Program-made: the position numbers and the translations under genes
Notes under the pieces: generated by a model
The model's input: the letters and a program-made list of their open reading frames with translations, nothing else
What the model was told of the DNA's origin: nothing
Databases searched by the model: none
Shown: piece after piece, positions 26,350 through 33,811 of the stretch
How positions within the stretch are numbered: the stretch's first letter is position 1
How the letters are laid out: each line of letters begins with the position of its first letter
NCBI GenBank assembly: GCA_020073325.1
Contig: JAIQFJ010000015.1
Span: 1-33,838, forward strand
DNA length: 33,838 nucleotides
Source of the DNA: Terriglobia bacterium
GTDB lineage: Bacteria > Acidobacteriota > Terriglobia > Bryobacterales > Bryobacteraceae
Reading direction: 5' to 3'

Positions 26350-27906
26350 ATGCCTGCCGAAAACCCGGCCGAATTCTTGCGAGCGCTCCTCGACGCTTCA
26401 CCCCTGGCGATCATTGCCATTGATCAGACAGGGCAGGTGAAGCTGTGGAACAGGGAGGCCGAGCGCCTGTTCGGCTGGACCGAGGCGGAGGTTTTCCATC
26501 GGCCGCTGCCACTGGCCATCGAATTGCTGCCATACCCCCAGGAAATCATTCTCCAGACGAAGCACGGGTTGGGGATTGAAGTGGATGTGCGCGTGGCTGA
26601 CTGGCGCGATGCTCGGGGAAACGACCAAGGCAAATTGCTCTTTGCGGCGGACACCACTGCACGACAACGAATGCAGCAGGAGCTTGCCGATTTGACTGAA
26701 CAGGAGCAGGCGGCGCGCCGCGAGGCGCAAAGCGAACGCAGATTCCGGGAGTTGCTCGAAGCGGCGCCCGACGCGATCATTGAAGTCGACCGCGACGGCC
26801 GCATCATTCTTCTCAACCGCGTGACCGAAAAATTGTTCGGCTATCCGCGCGAGGAACTGATCGGCAAGTCGGTGGAGGTTCTGATCCCCGCCGATTTACG
26901 GCTTGCCCATTCGAAGCATCGCGGGCATTATTGGGATCATCCGCAAACCCGCGCCATGGGCAGCGGACTCGCCTTGGAAGGACAGCGCAAGGACGGGACC
27001 TGTTTTCCGGTGGAGATCAGCCTGAGTCCGGTCTATTCCGACGATTCGTTCCGCGTCACCGCGATCATTCGCGACATCACGGAGCGCAAGCAGGCCGAGG
27101 ATCGCATCCACGTGATCCAGGAACAGTACACGCGCGACCTGGCGTACAAGAATCGCGAGCTGGAAGAGCGCAACCGGCAGATCGAGCGCGCCAATCGCCT
27201 GAAGAGTGAATTTCTGGCGAGCATGAGCCATGAGCTGCGCACGCCGCTGCACACGATCATCGGGTTTTCCGAACTCCTGGGCGAAGAGCTGGAAGGTCCG
27301 CTGAACGAAAAGCAGCAGCGCTTTATCAATCACATCCATAAAGACTCGATGCACCTGCTCGAGCTGATCAACGATGTGCTGGATCTCAGCAAGATCGAGG
27401 CGGGTCGGCTGGAGCTGCGCCCGGAAGTGTTCGACACGGTTTCGGTGATCGAAGAAGCTTTGGCCTCCGTCCGACAAACCGGCGAAGTCAAGCGGCTGAC
27501 GATCGAGCGTGAGGTGCCGGAACTACCCACGGTTTATGCGGACCGGCTCCGCTTCAAGCAGATCCTGCTGAACCTGCTCAGCAACGCAGTGAAATTCACG
27601 CCGGAAGGCGGCTTGATTCGCGTCGAGGCCGTCATGGACGAGGCGCAGATCGCATTCAGCGTGATCGACACGGGAGTCGGTATCGCCTTCGAAGAGCAGA
27701 AGTCGGTGTTCGACAAGTTTTATCAGGTCGGTCATACGACCAAAGGCGTACGCGAAGGAACGGGGCTCGGTCTGGCGATCACCAAGAAGCTGGTGGAAGA
27801 GCACGGCGGGACCATTTACGTCGTGAGCGAGCCGGGCAAGGGAAGCCGCTTCACGTTCACCATTCCTGTTGAAGGGTCCACCAGCGGGGAGGCCGGGCAA
27901 TCATGA
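26350..27906 (+). CDS. Soluble histidine kinase with two PAS domains
   Basis: The 518-residue protein has PAS domain 1 (about 7-105; IIAIDQTGQVKLWNREAERL), a coiled linker (EQEQAARREAQSERRFRELL), PAS domain 2 (about 132-247; DAIIEVDRDGRIILLNRVTE with a PAC end TAIIRDITERKQ), a second coiled coil (about 248-285), the HisKA domain with SMSHELRTPLH (phospho-His294), and the ATPase domain with N box QILLNLLSNAVKFT, VIDTGVGI and GTGLGLAITKKLVEEHGG. There is no membrane helix or signal peptide, so it senses a cytoplasmic cue, possibly redox or ligand. Overlaps the receiver gene by 4 bases (ATGA). Confidence 0.95.
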   Translation: MPAENPAEFLRALLDASPLAIIAIDQTGQVKLWNREAERLFGWTEAEVFHRPLPLAIELLPYPQEIILQTKHGLGIEVDVRVADWRDARGNDQGKLLFAADTTARQRMQQELADLTEQEQAARREAQSERRFRELLEAAPDAIIEVDRDGRIILLNRVTEKLFGYPREELIGKSVEVLIPADLRLAHSKHRGHYWDHPQTRAMGSGLALEGQRKDGTCFPVEISLSPVYSDDSFRVTAIIRDITERKQAEDRIHVIQEQYTRDLAYKNRELEERNRQIERANRLKSEFLASMSHELRTPLHTIIGFSELLGEELEGPLNEKQQRFINHIHKDSMHLLELINDVLDLSKIEAGRLELRPEVFDTVSVIEEALASVRQTGEVKRLTIEREVPELPTVYADRLRFKQILLNLLSNAVKFTPEGGLIRVEAVMDEAQIAFSVIDTGVGIAFEEQKSVFDKFYQVGHTTKGVREGTGLGLAITKKLVEEHGGTIYVVSEPGKGSRFTFTIPVEGSTSGEAGQS

Positions 27907-28265
27907 AAACGGTTCTGGTTGCGGACGATAAAGCCACCGGCCGCGAGCTGGTGCGCACGGTTCTCGAAAAATCGGGATATACGGTCATTGAAGCGAGCGA
28001 CGGGCTGGAAGCGGTCCGCTTCGCGCGCGAGCGGAATCCCGATCTGATTATCCTCGATCTGCACATGCCGGGCCTGGACGGCTTCGGCGTGATTCAGCAA
28101 CTGCGCAGCGAGGCCCAATTTGCCAAGACTCCGATCATGGCGTTGACTGCAAGCGCGATGCAAGGCGACCGCGAACGTGCACTCTCCATCGGATTCACTG
28201 GTTACATCACCAAGCCAATCCGCCTGGGCGCACTGCGCGGAGAAGTGGAGCGTTTGCTCGCATGA
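27903..28265 (+). CDS. Single-domain response regulator (receiver only)
   Basis: The 120-residue protein is one CheY-like receiver with no output domain. The acidic pair is in LVADDKATG, phospho-Asp52 in LIILDLHMPGLDG, Thr82 in MALTASAMQGD and Lys104 in YITKPI, all intact. It resembles DivK/CheY-type shuttles that pass phosphate or bind partners. It overlaps the kinase gene at one end and the NtrC-type gene at the other, each by 4 bases, so all three are made together. It may take phosphate from the PAS kinase and compete with, or relay to, the NtrC receiver. Confidence 0.94.
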   Translation: MKTVLVADDKATGRELVRTVLEKSGYTVIEASDGLEAVRFARERNPDLIILDLHMPGLDGFGVIQQLRSEAQFAKTPIMALTASAMQGDRERALSIGFTGYITKPIRLGALRGEVERLLA

Positions 28266-29650
28266 ATCCTCCTAAAGCTGCAATTTCGCTTTTAATTATT
28301 GACGATCACCCGGGGAGCCTGGAAATGCTGGCGACGGCGCTGGCTCAACAGGGTGTGGAAATTCTCACCGCCTCCGATCCTGAGACCGGGCTCGACATCA
28401 TCCACAATCGCCATCCTCATATCGTCCTCACCGATCTGGTGATGCCGCGCATGAGCGGCCTGGAAGTGCTGGAGCGGACCGTCGAATTCGATCCCTCGAT
28501 CGAAGTGATCCTGATGACGGCGCACTATTCGACGGAATCGGCCGTCGAAGCGATCAAGAAAGGCGCGTCGGATTATCTGAACAAGCCCGTCTCGATCACG
28601 GCTCTGCGCGAACGGATCGGCCGGTTAGTGGACGACGTCCGCAAGCGCCAGCGCACCATGCAGCTTGAAGACGAGATGCTGGCGACGGCGGAATTCGAAG
28701 GAATCGTCGGCCACAGCCCGCTGATGTGGGACCTTTTTTCGAAGGTTCGCCGCGTGGCGCCGCATTATCGCGCGATTCTGATCACCGGCCAGACCGGAAC
28801 CGGCAAGGACCTGATCGCGCGCGCGCTGCATGCGCTGAGTCCGGCCAATTCCGGACGCTATGTGGTGCTGAATTGTTCGGCGGTCGTCGAGACGCTGTTT
28901 GAAAGCGAGCTGTTCGGCCACGTCAAAGGATCGTTCACGGGAGCAACCACCGACAAAGCCGGTTTGTTCGAACACGCCCACGGCGGGACGCTGTTCCTGG
29001 ACGAAATCGGCGACATGCCGCTGGCGACGCAGGCCAAGCTGCTGCGCGTTCTGCAGAACCAGGAAGTGCAGCGCGTGGGATCGCTGACGGCGAAAAAAGT
29101 CGACGTGCGCGTGATCGCCGCGACGAATCACGATCTGCGGCAGGCGATCGTCGAAAAACGTTTTCGCGAGGATTTGTACTATCGGCTTTCGATGGTGGAG
29201 ATCCACGTCCCGAGCCTGGCGGAGCGCAAAGAAGATCTGCCGCTGCTCGAGCGCCACTTCATCACGCGCTTTGCGACGCAGTACGGCAAACAGATCCGCG
29301 GCCTGACGCATCGCGCGCAGATTCTGCTGTCGCTGCACGCATGGCCGGGCAATGTCCGCGAACTGGAAAACGTAATCGGCCACGCCTGCATGATGACGAT
29401 GGGCGAAATGATCGACGTTCCGGATCTGCCCGCGTATCTGCACTCGAAAGGCGAGTCGGCGGAAGCGGCCGCGGCTTCGGCTCCCAATTCGGCTCCGGTG
29501 GAACCGGGCGTCGGCACGCTGGAGGAGCAGGAACGCCTGCTGATTATCCGCGCTTTGGAAGCGGCCGGGGGAAACCAGTCGCAGGCGGCTCGGCTATTGC
29601 GCATCGGCCGCGATGCGCTGCGCTACAAGCTGAAGAAACACAACTTATAG
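28262..29650 (+). CDS. Sigma-54-dependent response regulator, NtrC family
   Basis: The 462-residue protein has a receiver domain (Asp58 in [12 protein letters not shown], Thr86 in LMTAHYS, Lys108 in YLNKPV), an AAA+ sigma-54 activation domain (Walker A GQTGTGKD at 176-183, [12 protein letters not shown] at 217-228, Walker [37 protein letters not shown]) and a Fis-type helix-turn-helix end ([24 protein letters not shown]). The sigma-54-contacting loop reads GSFTGA where GAFTGA is commonest; this variant occurs in functional activators. It would activate sigma-54 promoters, but no clear -24/-12 element was found within this window. A short Ala/Ser/Pro linker ([12 protein letters not shown]) joins the last two domains. 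Confidence 0.96.
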
Positions 29651-29755
29651 CCGGCGGCCATTCCGACCTAATCTTTTTTCCAGGCTGAATCCGCCCGAAT
29701 TTCCGGTGCATCTCGAACTGTGGACCTCCATCATGGGTTCAGAGGTTCTTTTCGA

Positions 29756-30634
29756 ATGCCCAACAGTTTGATTCAGCTCTCCGATGAAGTGGCCGCGATT
29801 GTGGAAAGCGCGGGGAAATCCGTGGTCGCCATTTACGGCGGCGGACGCATTCCTTCGAGCGGCGTGCATTGGAAGCCCGGATTCATCGTCACGGCCGAGC
29901 ACTCGCTGCGCCGCGATGAAGACTTGAAAATCGGCCTGCCCGACGGAAAAATCGTCGCCGCGGAACTCGCCGGACGCGACCCCGGCAGCGATCTGGCGCT
30001 GCTCAAGTTCGACGCGGGCGATGTGCCGGTGATCGTGACAACGAACGCCGCGCCGCGCACGGGCGACCTGATCGTCGCCGTGGGACGCCATCGCGAAATC
30101 GGCACGTGCGCCGCGCTCGGAATCGTCAGCGTGCTTGGCCCCGGCTGGAACACGTGGCGAGGAGGTCGCGTCGACCAGTTCATTCGGCTCGACGTGGCGC
30201 TTTATCCCGGATCGTCCGGCGCGGCGATCGTCAATTCGAGCGGCGAGGCGCTCGGCGTCGCGACGTCTGTCCTGTCGCGCATCGCTCCGGTTGCGGTTCC
30301 GCGTGTGACCGTCGATCGTGTCGCGACTGAGCTGGCCAAGCGCGGACGTGTCGCCCGCGGCTATCTCGGCGTCGGCCTGCAGCCGGTGCCGCTGCCGGAA
30401 GAACTCGGGTCGGCGGGGATGATCGTGCTGAGCGTGGAGAAGAAGAGTCCCGCGGCGAATGCCGGGCTTGTGGTCGGCGACATTCTGGTCGCCATCGACG
30501 GGCGTCCGGTGAAGGACACCGCCGACGTGCAGGCGTTCCTGTTCGGCGATTCCATCGGCAAGACGTTCAGCACAACCATCGTGCGCGGGGGCCAGCGCAC
30601 GGAGCTCGCCGGACTGACGATCGGAGAAAAATAA
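29756..30634 (+). CDS. Trypsin-like (HtrA-type) serine protease with PDZ domain, no export signal
   Basis: ATG 29756 follows AGAGG by 9 bases; the ORF-track start at 29720 is less likely. The 292-residue protein begins directly with MPNSLIQLSDEVAAIVESAG, without signal peptide or membrane helix. A chymotrypsin-fold catalytic triad is visible: His49 (IVTAEHS), Asp79 (SDLALLKF) and Ser154 (YPGSSGAAIV, where HtrA proteins usually have GNSGG). A PDZ domain follows from about 203 (GYLGVGLQPV, VLSVEKKSPAANAGLVVGDI). Predicted cytoplasmic protease or peptide-binding protein. Its stop overlaps the second protease gene by one base (TAATG). Confidence 0.88.
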   Translation: MPNSLIQLSDEVAAIVESAGKSVVAIYGGGRIPSSGVHWKPGFIVTAEHSLRRDEDLKIGLPDGKIVAAELAGRDPGSDLALLKFDAGDVPVIVTTNAAPRTGDLIVAVGRHREIGTCAALGIVSVLGPGWNTWRGGRVDQFIRLDVALYPGSSGAAIVNSSGEALGVATSVLSRIAPVAVPRVTVDRVATELAKRGRVARGYLGVGLQPVPLPEELGSAGMIVLSVEKKSPAANAGLVVGDILVAIDGRPVKDTADVQAFLFGDSIGKTFSTTIVRGGQRTELAGLTIGEK

Positions 30635-31380
30635 TGTTCGGCGTCGTCGCGGAAAATTTGCGGCGGTCCACCGTGCACGTGCGCGGCGGCGGATCGGGGG
30701 TTCTGTGGCGACCCGATCTGATCGTCACCAATGCGCATGTCGCGCGGCACGACCGGTACGTGGTCGATCTTTGGGACGGGCGAAAGCTCGATGCTGCGGT
30801 GGTCAAGCGCGACGCGCGGCGCGATCTTGCGTTGCTCGAAATGGCAATGACGGACGCGCCGCCCGCCCGCGTGGGCGATTCGAGCGCGCTGCGGCCGGGA
30901 CAGATCGTGGTCGCGGTGGGCAATCCGCTGGGATTCATCGGCGCGCTGTCGACCGGCGTGGTTCACGCGCAAAACCGGCGCTGGATTCAGGCCGATATTC
31001 GCCTGGCGCCGGGAAACTCGGGCGGTCCGCTGGCCGACGCCGAAGGACGCGTGGTCGGCATCAACACGATGATCGCGGGCGGGCTGGCCTATGCGATTCC
31101 GGTCTCGGCAGTGGCCGCGTTTGTCGAACAGGAGCCGCGCGCGGCGCTCGGCGTAGTGCTGCAGCCGGTGCGCGAAGGACTGCTGATTCTCGAAGTGGAG
31201 CCGAACAGCCCCGCGGCTCATGCATCGCTGCTGCAAGGGGATCTGCTCGTCGGCTTCGATTCTCCCGACGCTCTGCAAGACGCGATCGATTCGTGCGAGG
31301 TCCTGATGCTGCGCTTTCTTCGCGGCGGCCGGCGGCAAGTCCGCGAAGTCGCCGTGCGATTGAGGGCGCAAGCCGCGTGA
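30634..31380 (+). CDS. Second trypsin-like serine protease with a short PDZ-like end, no export signal
   Basis: The 248-residue protein starts at the A shared with the first protease's stop (TAATG). It begins MFGVVAENLRRSTVHVRGGG, again without a signal peptide. The triad is canonical: His35 (LIVTNAHV), Asp64 (RDLALLEM) and Ser129 (LAPGNSGGPL). The PDZ-like tail is shortened, about 75 residues (LGVVLQPVREGLLILEVEPN, ASLLQGDLLVGFD). The two neighbours seem to be diverged duplicates, with the second keeping the standard GNSGG. Its stop overlaps the LuxR-type gene by 4 bases (GTGA). Confidence 0.88.
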   Translation: MFGVVAENLRRSTVHVRGGGSGVLWRPDLIVTNAHVARHDRYVVDLWDGRKLDAAVVKRDARRDLALLEMAMTDAPPARVGDSSALRPGQIVVAVGNPLGFIGALSTGVVHAQNRRWIQADIRLAPGNSGGPLADAEGRVVGINTMIAGGLAYAIPVSAVAAFVEQEPRAALGVVLQPVREGLLILEVEPNSPAAHASLLQGDLLVGFDSPDALQDAIDSCEVLMLRFLRGGRRQVREVAVRLRAQAA

Positions 31381-31958
31381 CACGCGTCGGAGTGGTGACG
31401 ACGTCGGCGTTGCTGCGCGCGGGCCTGGAGTCCGTCGTCGAGCTGACCGGCTCAGCCGAAACGCTTCAAGAGGCCGCCGAGCTGAGCGCTGACGTGATCG
31501 TGGTCGATTGGGATCACGAGCAGGCCCAGGAGCTGATCGAGTTCGCCTCCGATGCTCCTCCGCTGATCGTTCTGGCCGTCGATCCGCAGCCGCCGTGGCT
31601 CGGGGAGGGGTTGCGCGCAGGAATTCGCGGCGTTCTGCCGCGCGATGCGTCGACGGCGGAAATCGCTGCCGCGATCGATGCGGCCGCTGCAGGATTGGTC
31701 GTGCTGCATCCCGACGCGGTCGACAATGCGGCGGTTCGGACAAGGGCCGTGGCGCAGGGCGAGGCGTTGAGTCCGCGCGAAATCGAGGTGCTGCGACTGG
31801 TCGCCGAAGGATCGAGTAACAAAGAGATCGCCTGGAAACTCAGCATCTCCGAGCATACGGTGAAATTTCATCTGAACTCGATCCTGTCGAAAATGCACGC
31901 GGGGAGTCGGACGGAGGCGGTGATGCTCGGGTTGAGGCAAGGCTTGATTCCGCTGTAG
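31377..31958 (+). CDS. LuxR/NarL-type regulator with degenerate receiver domain
   Basis: The gene starts at GTG 31377 within GTGA, coupled to the protease; the ORF-track entry at 30705 reads through the protease in another frame. The 193-residue protein has a receiver-like N-terminal domain and a complete LuxR-type helix-turn-helix (LSPREIEVLRLVAEGSSNKE, SISEHTVKFHLNSILSKM). The receiver seems inactive in the normal way: the acidic pair is replaced by Thr8-Thr9 (VGVVTTSALL), the usual Lys is Arg89 (VLPRDAS), and the Thr/Ser after strand 4 is missing (IVLAVDP). Asp44 (VVDWD) remains. It may be controlled by proteolysis or partner binding instead of phosphorylation. Confidence 0.9.
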   Translation: MTRVGVVTTSALLRAGLESVVELTGSAETLQEAAELSADVIVVDWDHEQAQELIEFASDAPPLIVLAVDPQPPWLGEGLRAGIRGVLPRDASTAEIAAAIDAAAAGLVVLHPDAVDNAAVRTRAVAQGEALSPREIEVLRLVAEGSSNKEIAWKLSISEHTVKFHLNSILSKMHAGSRTEAVMLGLRQGLIPL

Positions 31959-31964
31959 TAACCT

Positions 31965-32076
31965 GTGGGGCCGGTCGCCAGACCGGCAAGCCGGTTGTGA
32001 AACCGGCTGGTCTTTGATTTTTCAGTCGATTGCGTACTTGACTGGAAAAGAAAGCCGGTCTTGCGACCGGCCCCAC
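31965..32076. repeat. Nested inverted repeat (outer 23-base arms with two inner hairpins)
   Basis: The outer arms GTGGGGCCGGTCGCCAGACCGGC and GCCGGTCTTGCGACCGGCCCCAC pair at 22 of 23 positions across 66 bases. Inside are AGCCGGTT-GTGA-AACCGGCT (31989-32008, perfect) and a weaker hairpin TTTTTCAGTC with GACTGGAAAA (32018-32049). It fills the gap between the LuxR-type gene and the convergent transketolase gene. It may be a bidirectional terminator, a MITE-like element or a structured RNA. No transposase or target duplication is seen. Confidence 0.75.
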
Positions 32077-32092
32077 GATGTTTTTCAAGGGA

Positions 32093-33811
32093 CTAGGCTG
32101 ACACTGCGGCGATGATTGATTTTGCGGAGATGCCGTAGTGTTCCAGCAGCTCTTCGGGCTTGCCGCTATGCGGAATATCACGCACCGCGAGCCGCTGGAC
32201 AGGGCCGCCGACGGCCAGACTCACGGCGTCGCCGATCCCGCCGTGGACATAGTGATCCTCAACCGTGATCACGCGGCCTCCGCACTCGCGCGCGCATTCG
32301 CGCAACGTGTCGACATCGATCGGCTGAACACTGAACAGATCGACGACGGTGAAGTTCTTGAGTTGATCCCACGCCTTCAAAGCTTCGAACAGCGTCACGC
32401 CGGCCGCGACCACGCAGGCACGATCGCCGCGGCGCAGCACCTTCGCCTTGCCGAGCTCGAATCGCTCCGTCGAAGGATAAATCACCGGAGTCTTCGGACG
32501 GCTGGTGCGAATATATACGGGTCCATGGATCGCCGACGCGAGTTCCACGGCGCGCCACGCGCTCACCGCGTCCGATGGATAGAACACCGCGAAATCCGGC
32601 TGCGCCGTGGTCATCGCAAGATCTTCCAGACCCATCTGTGACGGCCCATCCTCGCCGATCGAAATTCCGGCGTGCGTCCCGACCAGCTTGATGTTCGATC
32701 CGCTGATCGCCGCCATGCGCATGAAGTCGTAGGCGCGCGTGAAAAAACACGCGAAGGTGGCCGCGAACGGAATTTTCTGCGCCGCCGCCAGCCCCATCGC
32801 CGCGCCCACCATGTTCTGCTCGGCGATAAACATTTCGAAAAACCGCTCCGGTGCGACCTTTTCGAACTCTTCCGTGTACGTGGAGTTCTTCACGTCGCCG
32901 TCGAGCGTCACGACTAACGGATTCGCTTTGCCGAGCGCGGCAAGGGCCATTGCGAATGCCTTGCGCGTCGCCTCCGGCTGCGACTCCGGCGACCATGGTG
33001 GATCGCCGACGGCCGTCGGACGCGCGGATTGCGCAGGATTTCCCGTGGGAAGCTGCGGTGTCCACGTCGCGCCGTTCTGGCCGAGCTGCTTTTCCAGTGC
33101 CGCGATCACTTTGTCGGCCTTCGCTTTGTCGAGAGCCTGTCCGTGAAATCCGTTGTGATCCGCCTCGCCCGGAATTCCGTGGCCCTTGATCGTTCGCGCC
33201 AGCACCACCGTAGGGCGATGCGGCGTTTCCGCGGCGCGATGATAGGCGTCGAGCAGCGCATCGACATCGTGACCATCCACCACGATCGCGTTCCAGCCGA
33301 AGGCCTCGAAGCGGCGGCGATACGCTTCCATGTCGTGGCCCTCCATCGTCTCGCCGCTCTGGCCCAGCCGGTTGACATCGATCGTCGCGCAAAGATTGTC
33401 GAGCTTTTGATAGGCCGCCGAGTGCGCCGCTTCCCAGACCGATCCTTCGGCCGATTCGCCGTCGCCCATCAGCACGTAAATCCGTCGCTGCGATTTGTCG
33501 AGCCGGGCCGCGAGCGCCATTCCCACTCCGACGGAAAGTCCCTGGCCGAGCGATCCGGTCGCCACTGGAACAAACGGCAGCCGCGGCGTCGGGTGACCTT
33601 CCAGATTCGACCCGAGCGTCCGCAGCTTCAGCAATTCGTCGCGCGGAAACAAACCGGCCTCGGCCCAGGCCGCGTAGAGAATCGGCGCTGCGTGACCTTT
33701 CGACAGAATGAAGACGTCGTTACGCGGATCGCGCGGATTTTTCGGATCGTAACGCATCACCGAAAAAAACAGCGTGGAAATGATTTCTGCCGCCGAGGTC
33801 GAACTAGTTGG
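32093..33811 (-). CDS. tkt: Transketolase, truncated at the N-terminus by the window end
   Basis: Transketolase moves two-carbon units between pentose and other sugar phosphates with thiamine diphosphate. From about 33811 leftward the frame reads PTSSTSAAEIISTLFFSVMR, then YDPKNPRDPRNDVFILSKGH, VATGSLGQGLSVGVGMALA, the cofactor motif LMGDGESAEGSVWEA, DGDVKNSTYTEEF and FIAEQNMVGAAMGLAA (catalytic Glu) and a C-terminal domain with AGVTLFEALKAWDQ. The subgroup resembles the transketolases related to animal TKT. The ORF track starts at a GTG at 33760, but similarity continues upstream to about 33811, where an in-frame stop follows at 33826 in low-complexity sequence. About 30 N-terminal residues, up to the GSGHP-type motif, are missing. 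Convergent with the LuxR-type gene. Confidence 0.95.
   Translation of the reverse strand, partial: PTSSTSAAEIISTLFFSVMRYDPKNPRDPRNDVFILSKGHAAPILYAAWAEAGLFPRDELLKLRTLGSNLEGHPTPRLPFVPVATGSLGQGLSVGVGMALAARLDKSQRRIYVLMGDGESAEGSVWEAAHSAAYQKLDNLCATIDVNRLGQSGETMEGHDMEAYRRRFEAFGWNAIVVDGHDVDALLDAYHRAAETPHRPTVVLARTIKGHGIPGEADHNGFHGQALDKAKADKVIAALEKQLGQNGATWTPQLPTGNPAQSARPTAVGDPPWSPESQPEATRKAFAMALAALGKANPLVVTLDGDVKNSTYTEEFEKVAPERFFEMFIAEQNMVGAAMGLAAAQKIPFAATFACFFTRAYDFMRMAAISGSNIKLVGTHAGISIGEDGPSQMGLEDLAMTTAQPDFAVFYPSDAVSAWRAVELASAIHGPVYIRTSRPKTPVIYPSTERFELGKAKVLRRGDRACVVAAGVTLFEALKAWDQLKNFTVVDLFSVQPIDVDTLRECARECGGRVITVEDHYVHGGIGDAVSLAVGGPVQRLAVRDIPHSGKPEELLEHYGISAKSIIAAVSA

Follow-up and report, generated by a model that had tools for sequence, protein, structure and literature searches.

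As judged from gene order and protein comparison, a compact operon encoding two signal-less HtrA-type proteins (P1 and P2) and a LuxR-type regulator (P3) is common to bacteria of about ten phyla. We consider it probable that this operon forms an autoregulated cytosolic HtrA module, in which the PDZ domain of P1 would restrain P3 and the C-termini of client proteins would relieve the restraint. The components are of known kinds, and the unit, its promoter and its pseudoprotease pattern are apparently undescribed. The earlier note on this DNA had likewise not recognised the unit as a described system, and our literature search, with most subscription journals outside its reach, found no description of the P1-P2-P3 unit, its promoter or the pseudoprotease pattern.

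Gene organisation and distribution of the operon

The window, meaning the whole stretch of 33,838 nucleotides that was analysed, belongs to a genome of 6.5 Mb whose nearest named relatives are metagenome-assembled genomes (MAGs) of Bryobacteraceae/Acidobacteriota. All three genes are encoded on the forward strand. P1 (29756-30634, 292 aa) is a signal-less HtrA-fold protein with a Trypsin_2 domain at residues 35-168 and a PDZ domain at residues 202-284, P2 (30634-31380, 248 aa) is a serine protease of HtrA type, also without a signal peptide, that ends in a short PDZ-like region, and P3 (31377-31958, 193 aa) is a NarL/LuxR-type regulator with a pseudo-receiver. The three overlapping frames were recovered at the positions given in the earlier note, with a TAATG overlap at the P1/P2 junction and a GTGA overlap at the P2/P3 junction. 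A Shine-Dalgarno-like AGAGG was read from the sequence ahead of P1 (29741-29745, forward strand). An NTGA overlap between P2 and P3 was present in 57 of 62 loci, with P2 translationally coupled to P3.

Directly upstream, at 26350-29650, genes for a PAS-PAS histidine kinase, a single-domain receiver and an NtrC-type sigma-54 activator are joined by 4-base overlaps; among ten relatives, none had these genes adjoining the triplet. The interval 31966-32090, between P3 and the gene that follows, holds GC-rich inverted repeats (ggggccggtcgc...gcgaccggcccc), which resemble a REP-like element or a terminator. The long frame at 32093-33760 on the reverse strand we take, from reading its sequence, to be transketolase-like.

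When 60 relatives were searched for P2, ten carried a close copy (E at most 1e-49) and all ten had the order P1-P2-P3, with P1 incomplete in one and P2 frameshifted in another. The P1 alignment was scanned against 85,462 species genomes and retrieved 425 relatives. Loci were fetched with P1 for the best 80 of these 425, picked by similarity to P1, and the 80 loci are therefore no measure of overall frequency. They came from Acidobacteriota, Cyanobacteriota, Chloroflexota, Pseudomonadota (including Burkholderiaceae), Gemmatimonadota, Spirochaetota, Armatimonadota and others. P3 came after P1 wherever the contig was long enough, mostly with P2 between them, and about a dozen of the 80 were P1-P3 doublets without P2. 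Of the 237 genomes of the family, 85 had a P1-like match, a few of these being canonical HtrA. In the reverse test within the family, 66 of 76 strong P3 matches shared a contig with P1; eight of the other ten were at contig ends, one adjoined a broken P1/P2 (G210) and one was a true orphan (G107). On gene order, the conserved triplet in other genomes suggested by the earlier note was thereby borne out, the unit recurring across Acidobacteriota and other phyla.

The unit is not merely a binning artefact, because it is carried by the named isolate strains Cupriavidus necator UYPR2.512, Nodosilinea nodulosa PCC 7104 and Microcoleus sp. FACHB-1515; some MAG labels may be wrong. Among plasmid records, Paraburkholderia had the doublet, Bradyrhizobium had P1 together with a helix-turn-helix (HTH) protein lacking a receiver, and Rubrobacter had the order P1-P3-protease. 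Shared flanking genes were also considered as a clue to function, and no cluster of neighbours spans many distant lineages.

Location and catalytic state of P1 and P2

HtrA proteases are known chiefly as envelope quality-control enzymes, and their export to the periplasm or envelope is usual, though not universal. P1 and P2 are predicted to be cytoplasmic on the basis of geometry, namely the position of the catalytic His, the limits of the frames and the model of P2. The catalytic His comes early in the chain (residue 49 in P1, residue 35 in P2), leaving no room for a signal peptide, and for several relatives the open frame of P1 reaches back just 1-7 codons from the start. In the AlphaFold2 model of P2 (pLDDT 93.7) the first helix, residues 2-11, runs directly into the protease fold. 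These features agree with the earlier reading that the proteases carry neither signal peptide nor membrane anchor, and no leader was found in any P1 or P2 copy examined. In hydropathy windows the core strands at the start of P1 could not be told from leaders, and for this reason the location was argued from the His position and the frame limits. A hydrophobic leader is found at the start of at least two of the four further HtrA copies that were checked in this genome. According to PMC6411480, 11% of bacterial PDZ proteins are cytoplasmic, and the P1-P2-P3 unit is not named in the passages of it that were consulted.

Pfam matched Trypsin_2 in both proteins and PDZ_2 over its full length in P1; in P2 the PDZ_2 match was partial and sub-threshold. 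The PDZ-like ends described before on both proteases were thus confirmed, clearly in P1 and partially, below the Pfam cut-off, in P2. The full triad that had been noted in both proteases is present in the window copies (H49/D79/S154 in P1, H35/D64/S129 in P2), but across the family the statement holds for P2 alone. The catalytic Ser of P1 was lost in 28 of 81 loci, where Ala, Val, Ile, Leu, Thr, Asp or Asn replaced it, and its state changed at least nine times on the tree. All 47 aligned P2 copies kept the His, Asp and Ser, as did the full-length P2 copies from additional loci. The key positions of the P1 PDZ carboxylate loop, YLGVGLQP, were 90-100% conserved. Eight of 60 P2 proteins were without a PDZ region and ended soon after the Ser motif; the P2 of L212-L216 are also without it (L212 is one of the eight), giving about a dozen loci in total. 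P1 thus combines a conserved PDZ loop with a Ser that is often lost, whereas P2 combines an invariant triad with a PDZ region that is sometimes missing, and from these sequence patterns P1 seems to be retained for binding and P2 for cutting.

We also considered that the P1 triad might be kept only where P2 is absent. The first 81 loci gave a Fisher p of 0.049; independent pairs on the tree gave no support, and in the wider sample P1 was degenerate also in several loci where no P2 exists (L204, L207, L209, L210, L152), so this idea was rejected.

Several loci show other arrangements. In other Acidobacteriota (L186-L190) a LuxR gene has a signal-less HtrA gene on either side, of which the second is frequently encoded on the opposite strand; the triad is kept in the outer HtrA, and the P1-like HtrA is mostly degenerate. 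In one lineage the P1 Ser is lost and P3 is kept, P2 being deleted in L103 and frameshifted in L096. In L201, P1 and P2 are broken and P3 is kept. The C-terminus of P2 is Ala-Ala in 53 of 62 loci, including L140, where P2 and P3 do not overlap. This end is possibly a ClpXP-type tag or a by-product of the gene overlap; it is ambiguous as a tag, because the overlapping P3 start and the ribosome-binding site constrain the same codons.

The loss pattern bears on what the proteases may do to the regulator. It had been proposed earlier that the operon is a cytoplasmic proteolytic switch that processes the regulator, and a reading in which P3 is a target of cleavage or degradation by the proteases, or P2 is cleaved by P1, appears unlikely to us. 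Such a switch would suit the invariant triad of P2 and the translational coupling of its gene to P3, and an active protease next to an activator with positive autoregulation would naturally serve to switch it off. However, the P1 Ser was lost repeatedly, no cleavage site or processed form was recognisable in the sequence, and six loci (L103 and the five named above as lacking P2) have a degenerate P1 and no intact P2 and yet keep P3. Since P1 and P3 are kept in these loci without an intact local protease, proteolysis is not the universal core of the unit, and in place of the switch it is an autoregulated promoter that found support. Proteolysis of P3 by P2 is possible as an off-switch, though not as the common core.

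The nearest functional analogy of P1 and P2 is the MamE/MamO pair of magnetotactic bacteria, which likewise joins an active HtrA with a repeatedly evolved pseudoprotease (PMC4794232). In that pair the active site of MamO is dispensable, and MamO is needed for MamE-dependent proteolysis. By analogy, P1 could be an activator or scaffold of P2 acting on some client, with P3 as a local regulator, and the occurrence of a pseudoprotease beside an active HtrA matches this picture. We nevertheless hold it to be rather improbable: degenerate P1 occurs without P2, and thus activating P2 cannot be the sole role of P1. MamE and MamO also differ in being magnetosome proteins for which the passages of PMC4794232 that were consulted describe no LuxR partner, whereas P1 and P2 are predicted to be soluble and cytosolic.

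The regulator and its promoter

P3 contains a GerE (LuxR-type) helix-turn-helix at 31764-31925 on the forward strand (Pfam PF00196, E = 2.1e-21) and gave no Pfam match to Response_reg or to an autoinducer-binding domain. Its AlphaFold2 model (pLDDT 92.2) consists of a receiver fold followed by the HTH, with LiaR, VraR and NarL as the closest PDB folds; the N-terminal half is thus a receiver fold and not the autoinducer-binding domain of quorum-sensing LuxR proteins. In the window the receiver is degenerate, with T8/T9 at the position of the acidic pair and Arg in place of Lys. The acidic pair was found in none of 75 P3 proteins, nor was the full phosphorylation set (acidic pair, phospho-acceptor Asp, Lys), and the receiver is partly or wholly deleted in some lineages. 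With GerE present, the acidic pair absent and the fold kept, the description of P3 as a LuxR-type regulator with a degenerate receiver stands, and its sequence predicts that P3 cannot be phosphorylated in the usual way. P3 shares the GerE domain and the receiver fold with NarL/FixJ and atypical pseudo-receiver regulators (PMC12632262), and differs from NarL/FixJ regulators in the absence of the acidic pair from all 75 proteins, in having no conserved kinase partner and in having an HtrA operon as its partner.

P3 very probably regulates its own operon, and this autoregulation step is well supported by comparison of upstream regions. An operator-like promoter at 29689-29734, absent from the earlier note, precedes P1 on the forward strand. 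Its proximal operator-like site (ATCCGCCCGAATTTCCGGTG, 29689-29708) scored 15.9 bits and was the best match in the window (control 99th percentile 4.5 bits), and a -10-like hexamer, CATCAT (29729-29734), starts 20 nt after the end of this site. A tentative distal copy (ACCTAATCTTTTTTCCAGGC, 29666-29685, forward strand) lies 23 bp upstream of the proximal copy, the spacing most frequent in relatives, and is weak, with a matrix score of -2.2; the window's own proximal site is itself a below-average match. In the alignment of P1 upstream regions the block was conserved in two separate clades, and by eye in most loci.

The operator matrix (consensus ACCTAGCCGATCGGCCGATG) was trained on 46 Acidobacteriota upstream regions, the window's own included. 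Applied to other phyla, it placed 29 of 33 regions above the control 95th percentile and 26 of 33 above the 99th (Mann-Whitney p = 4e-20). The site was present in 72 of 79 loci overall, and a recognisable site was not found in L134, L137, L151 and L218. Second operator copies upstream gave 33 spacings, of which 18 were 23 bp and 12 were 24 bp (30/33). A [CT]ATnnT hexamer started 20 nt (14 loci) or 21 nt (38 loci) past the proximal site, in total in 52 of the 72 loci. Among a further 31 loci, mostly outside the training set (at least L036 was also in it), 28 scored above 4 bits, including the Rubrobacter and Bradyrhizobium plasmids. Across 30 whole genomes, 20 sequences fitted the full promoter pattern with no more than one mismatch. 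Of these, 17 were at the P1-P2-P3 operon (two of the loci being counted twice), and the reversed-pattern control gave 0.

Given the site and the -10 spacing, the operator is centred near -43, counted from the expected start, which corresponds to the class II activator position of lux boxes. The operator is ACCT-N12-AGGT-like, resembling the lux box, and shares with lux-box/LuxR promoters its centre near -43, upstream of the -10 element. It differs from them in that P3 has a pseudo-receiver and no autoinducer domain, and in the frequent second copy 23-24 bp upstream. The putative operator was matched to P3 by association, which makes P3 its candidate binder, and from the operator position the regulation would be positive. 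Strict operator patterns outside the operon occurred at about background counts, so P3 looks like a local regulator, although looser sites may exist.

The promoter and operon evidence needs nothing more than a plain autoregulated operon, in which P3 sets the dosage of the proteases for general cytosolic quality control and makes no protein contact with them. On the Arthrobacter plasmid NZ_CP084557.1 (L154) a signal-less HtrA-like gene adjoins dnaK, grpE, the J-domain gene dnaJ, cbpM and clpB, a neighbourhood that suggests a cytosolic heat-stress island and favours the same explanation. We still regard it as somewhat unlikely, as it does not account for the retention of a dead P1 alongside P3 across many lineages, also without P2, nor for what modulates a pseudo-receiver activator.

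A possible contact between P1 and P3 is offered by the C-terminal tail of P3, Gly-Leu-Ile-Pro-Leu-COOH (31941-31955, forward strand), whose phi-x-phi end is like a class II PDZ ligand and which comes after the last helix (178-187) in the AlphaFold2 model. The tail G-phi-phi-x-phi-COOH was found in 73 of 74 P3 proteins, as compared to 1 of 21 other GerE-type matches of this genome. The two closest non-linked GerE relatives in the genome end RGIIQL and RGILHLES, alike or nearly so, and because of these similar ends the tail is only suggestive as a PDZ ligand; it may instead be an inherited subfamily trait. The conserved hydrophobic C-terminus of P3 lends circumstantial support to the idea that the PDZ domains read a C-terminal signal.

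Proposed mechanism and its meaning

In the autoregulated module that we favour, P3 would be a NarL/LuxR-type activator that turns on its own operon by binding to one or two lux-box-like operators immediately ahead of the -10 element. P2 would be the working cytosolic serine protease. P1, catalytic or not, would be an HtrA-fold protein whose PDZ domain is the main reason for its retention, and it would most likely act as a sensor or brake. The PDZ domain of P1 would hold P3 inactive through the hydrophobic C-terminal tail, and damaged or misfolded proteins of the cytosol would compete for the PDZ domain through their exposed C-termini and free P3. The freed P3 would then raise P1 and P2 until the load is cleared. 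The step between the PDZ domain and P3, drawn from sequence features, is a tentative hypothesis. With similar reserve we suggest that an HtrA-fold PDZ protein, often a pseudoprotease, could replace the histidine kinase as the controller of a pseudo-receiver activator, the PDZ domain reading exposed C-termini and passing this on to transcription of a cytosolic protease.

P1 and P2 share the protease fold, the His-Asp-Ser triad and the C-terminal PDZ domain with HtrA, DegP, DegQ and DegS (MEROPS S1C; PDB matches HhoA, DegP, DegQ and HtrA2). In contrast to these, they have no signal peptide or anchor, one of them is often dead, and they are tied to a DNA-binding regulator; their scores were far below the curated NCBIfam cut-offs. 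A role in anti-phage defence was rejected, as the PADLOC matches were confined to the generic trypsin region of RT-Protease models and to the HTH region of CARF models.

The operon represents a recurrent, self-regulated cytosolic form of HtrA, in which catalysis has repeatedly been lost in one partner and strictly retained in the other. A 2025 review (PMC12632262) describes it as a mystery how bacterial pseudo-receivers are controlled, and the word protease is absent from its main text; the unit offers a tractable answer to how the control of a pseudo-receiver regulator may work. If the proposed mechanism is true, the operon would be a kinase-free, one-operon stress sensor and a cytosolic signalling module found across phyla.
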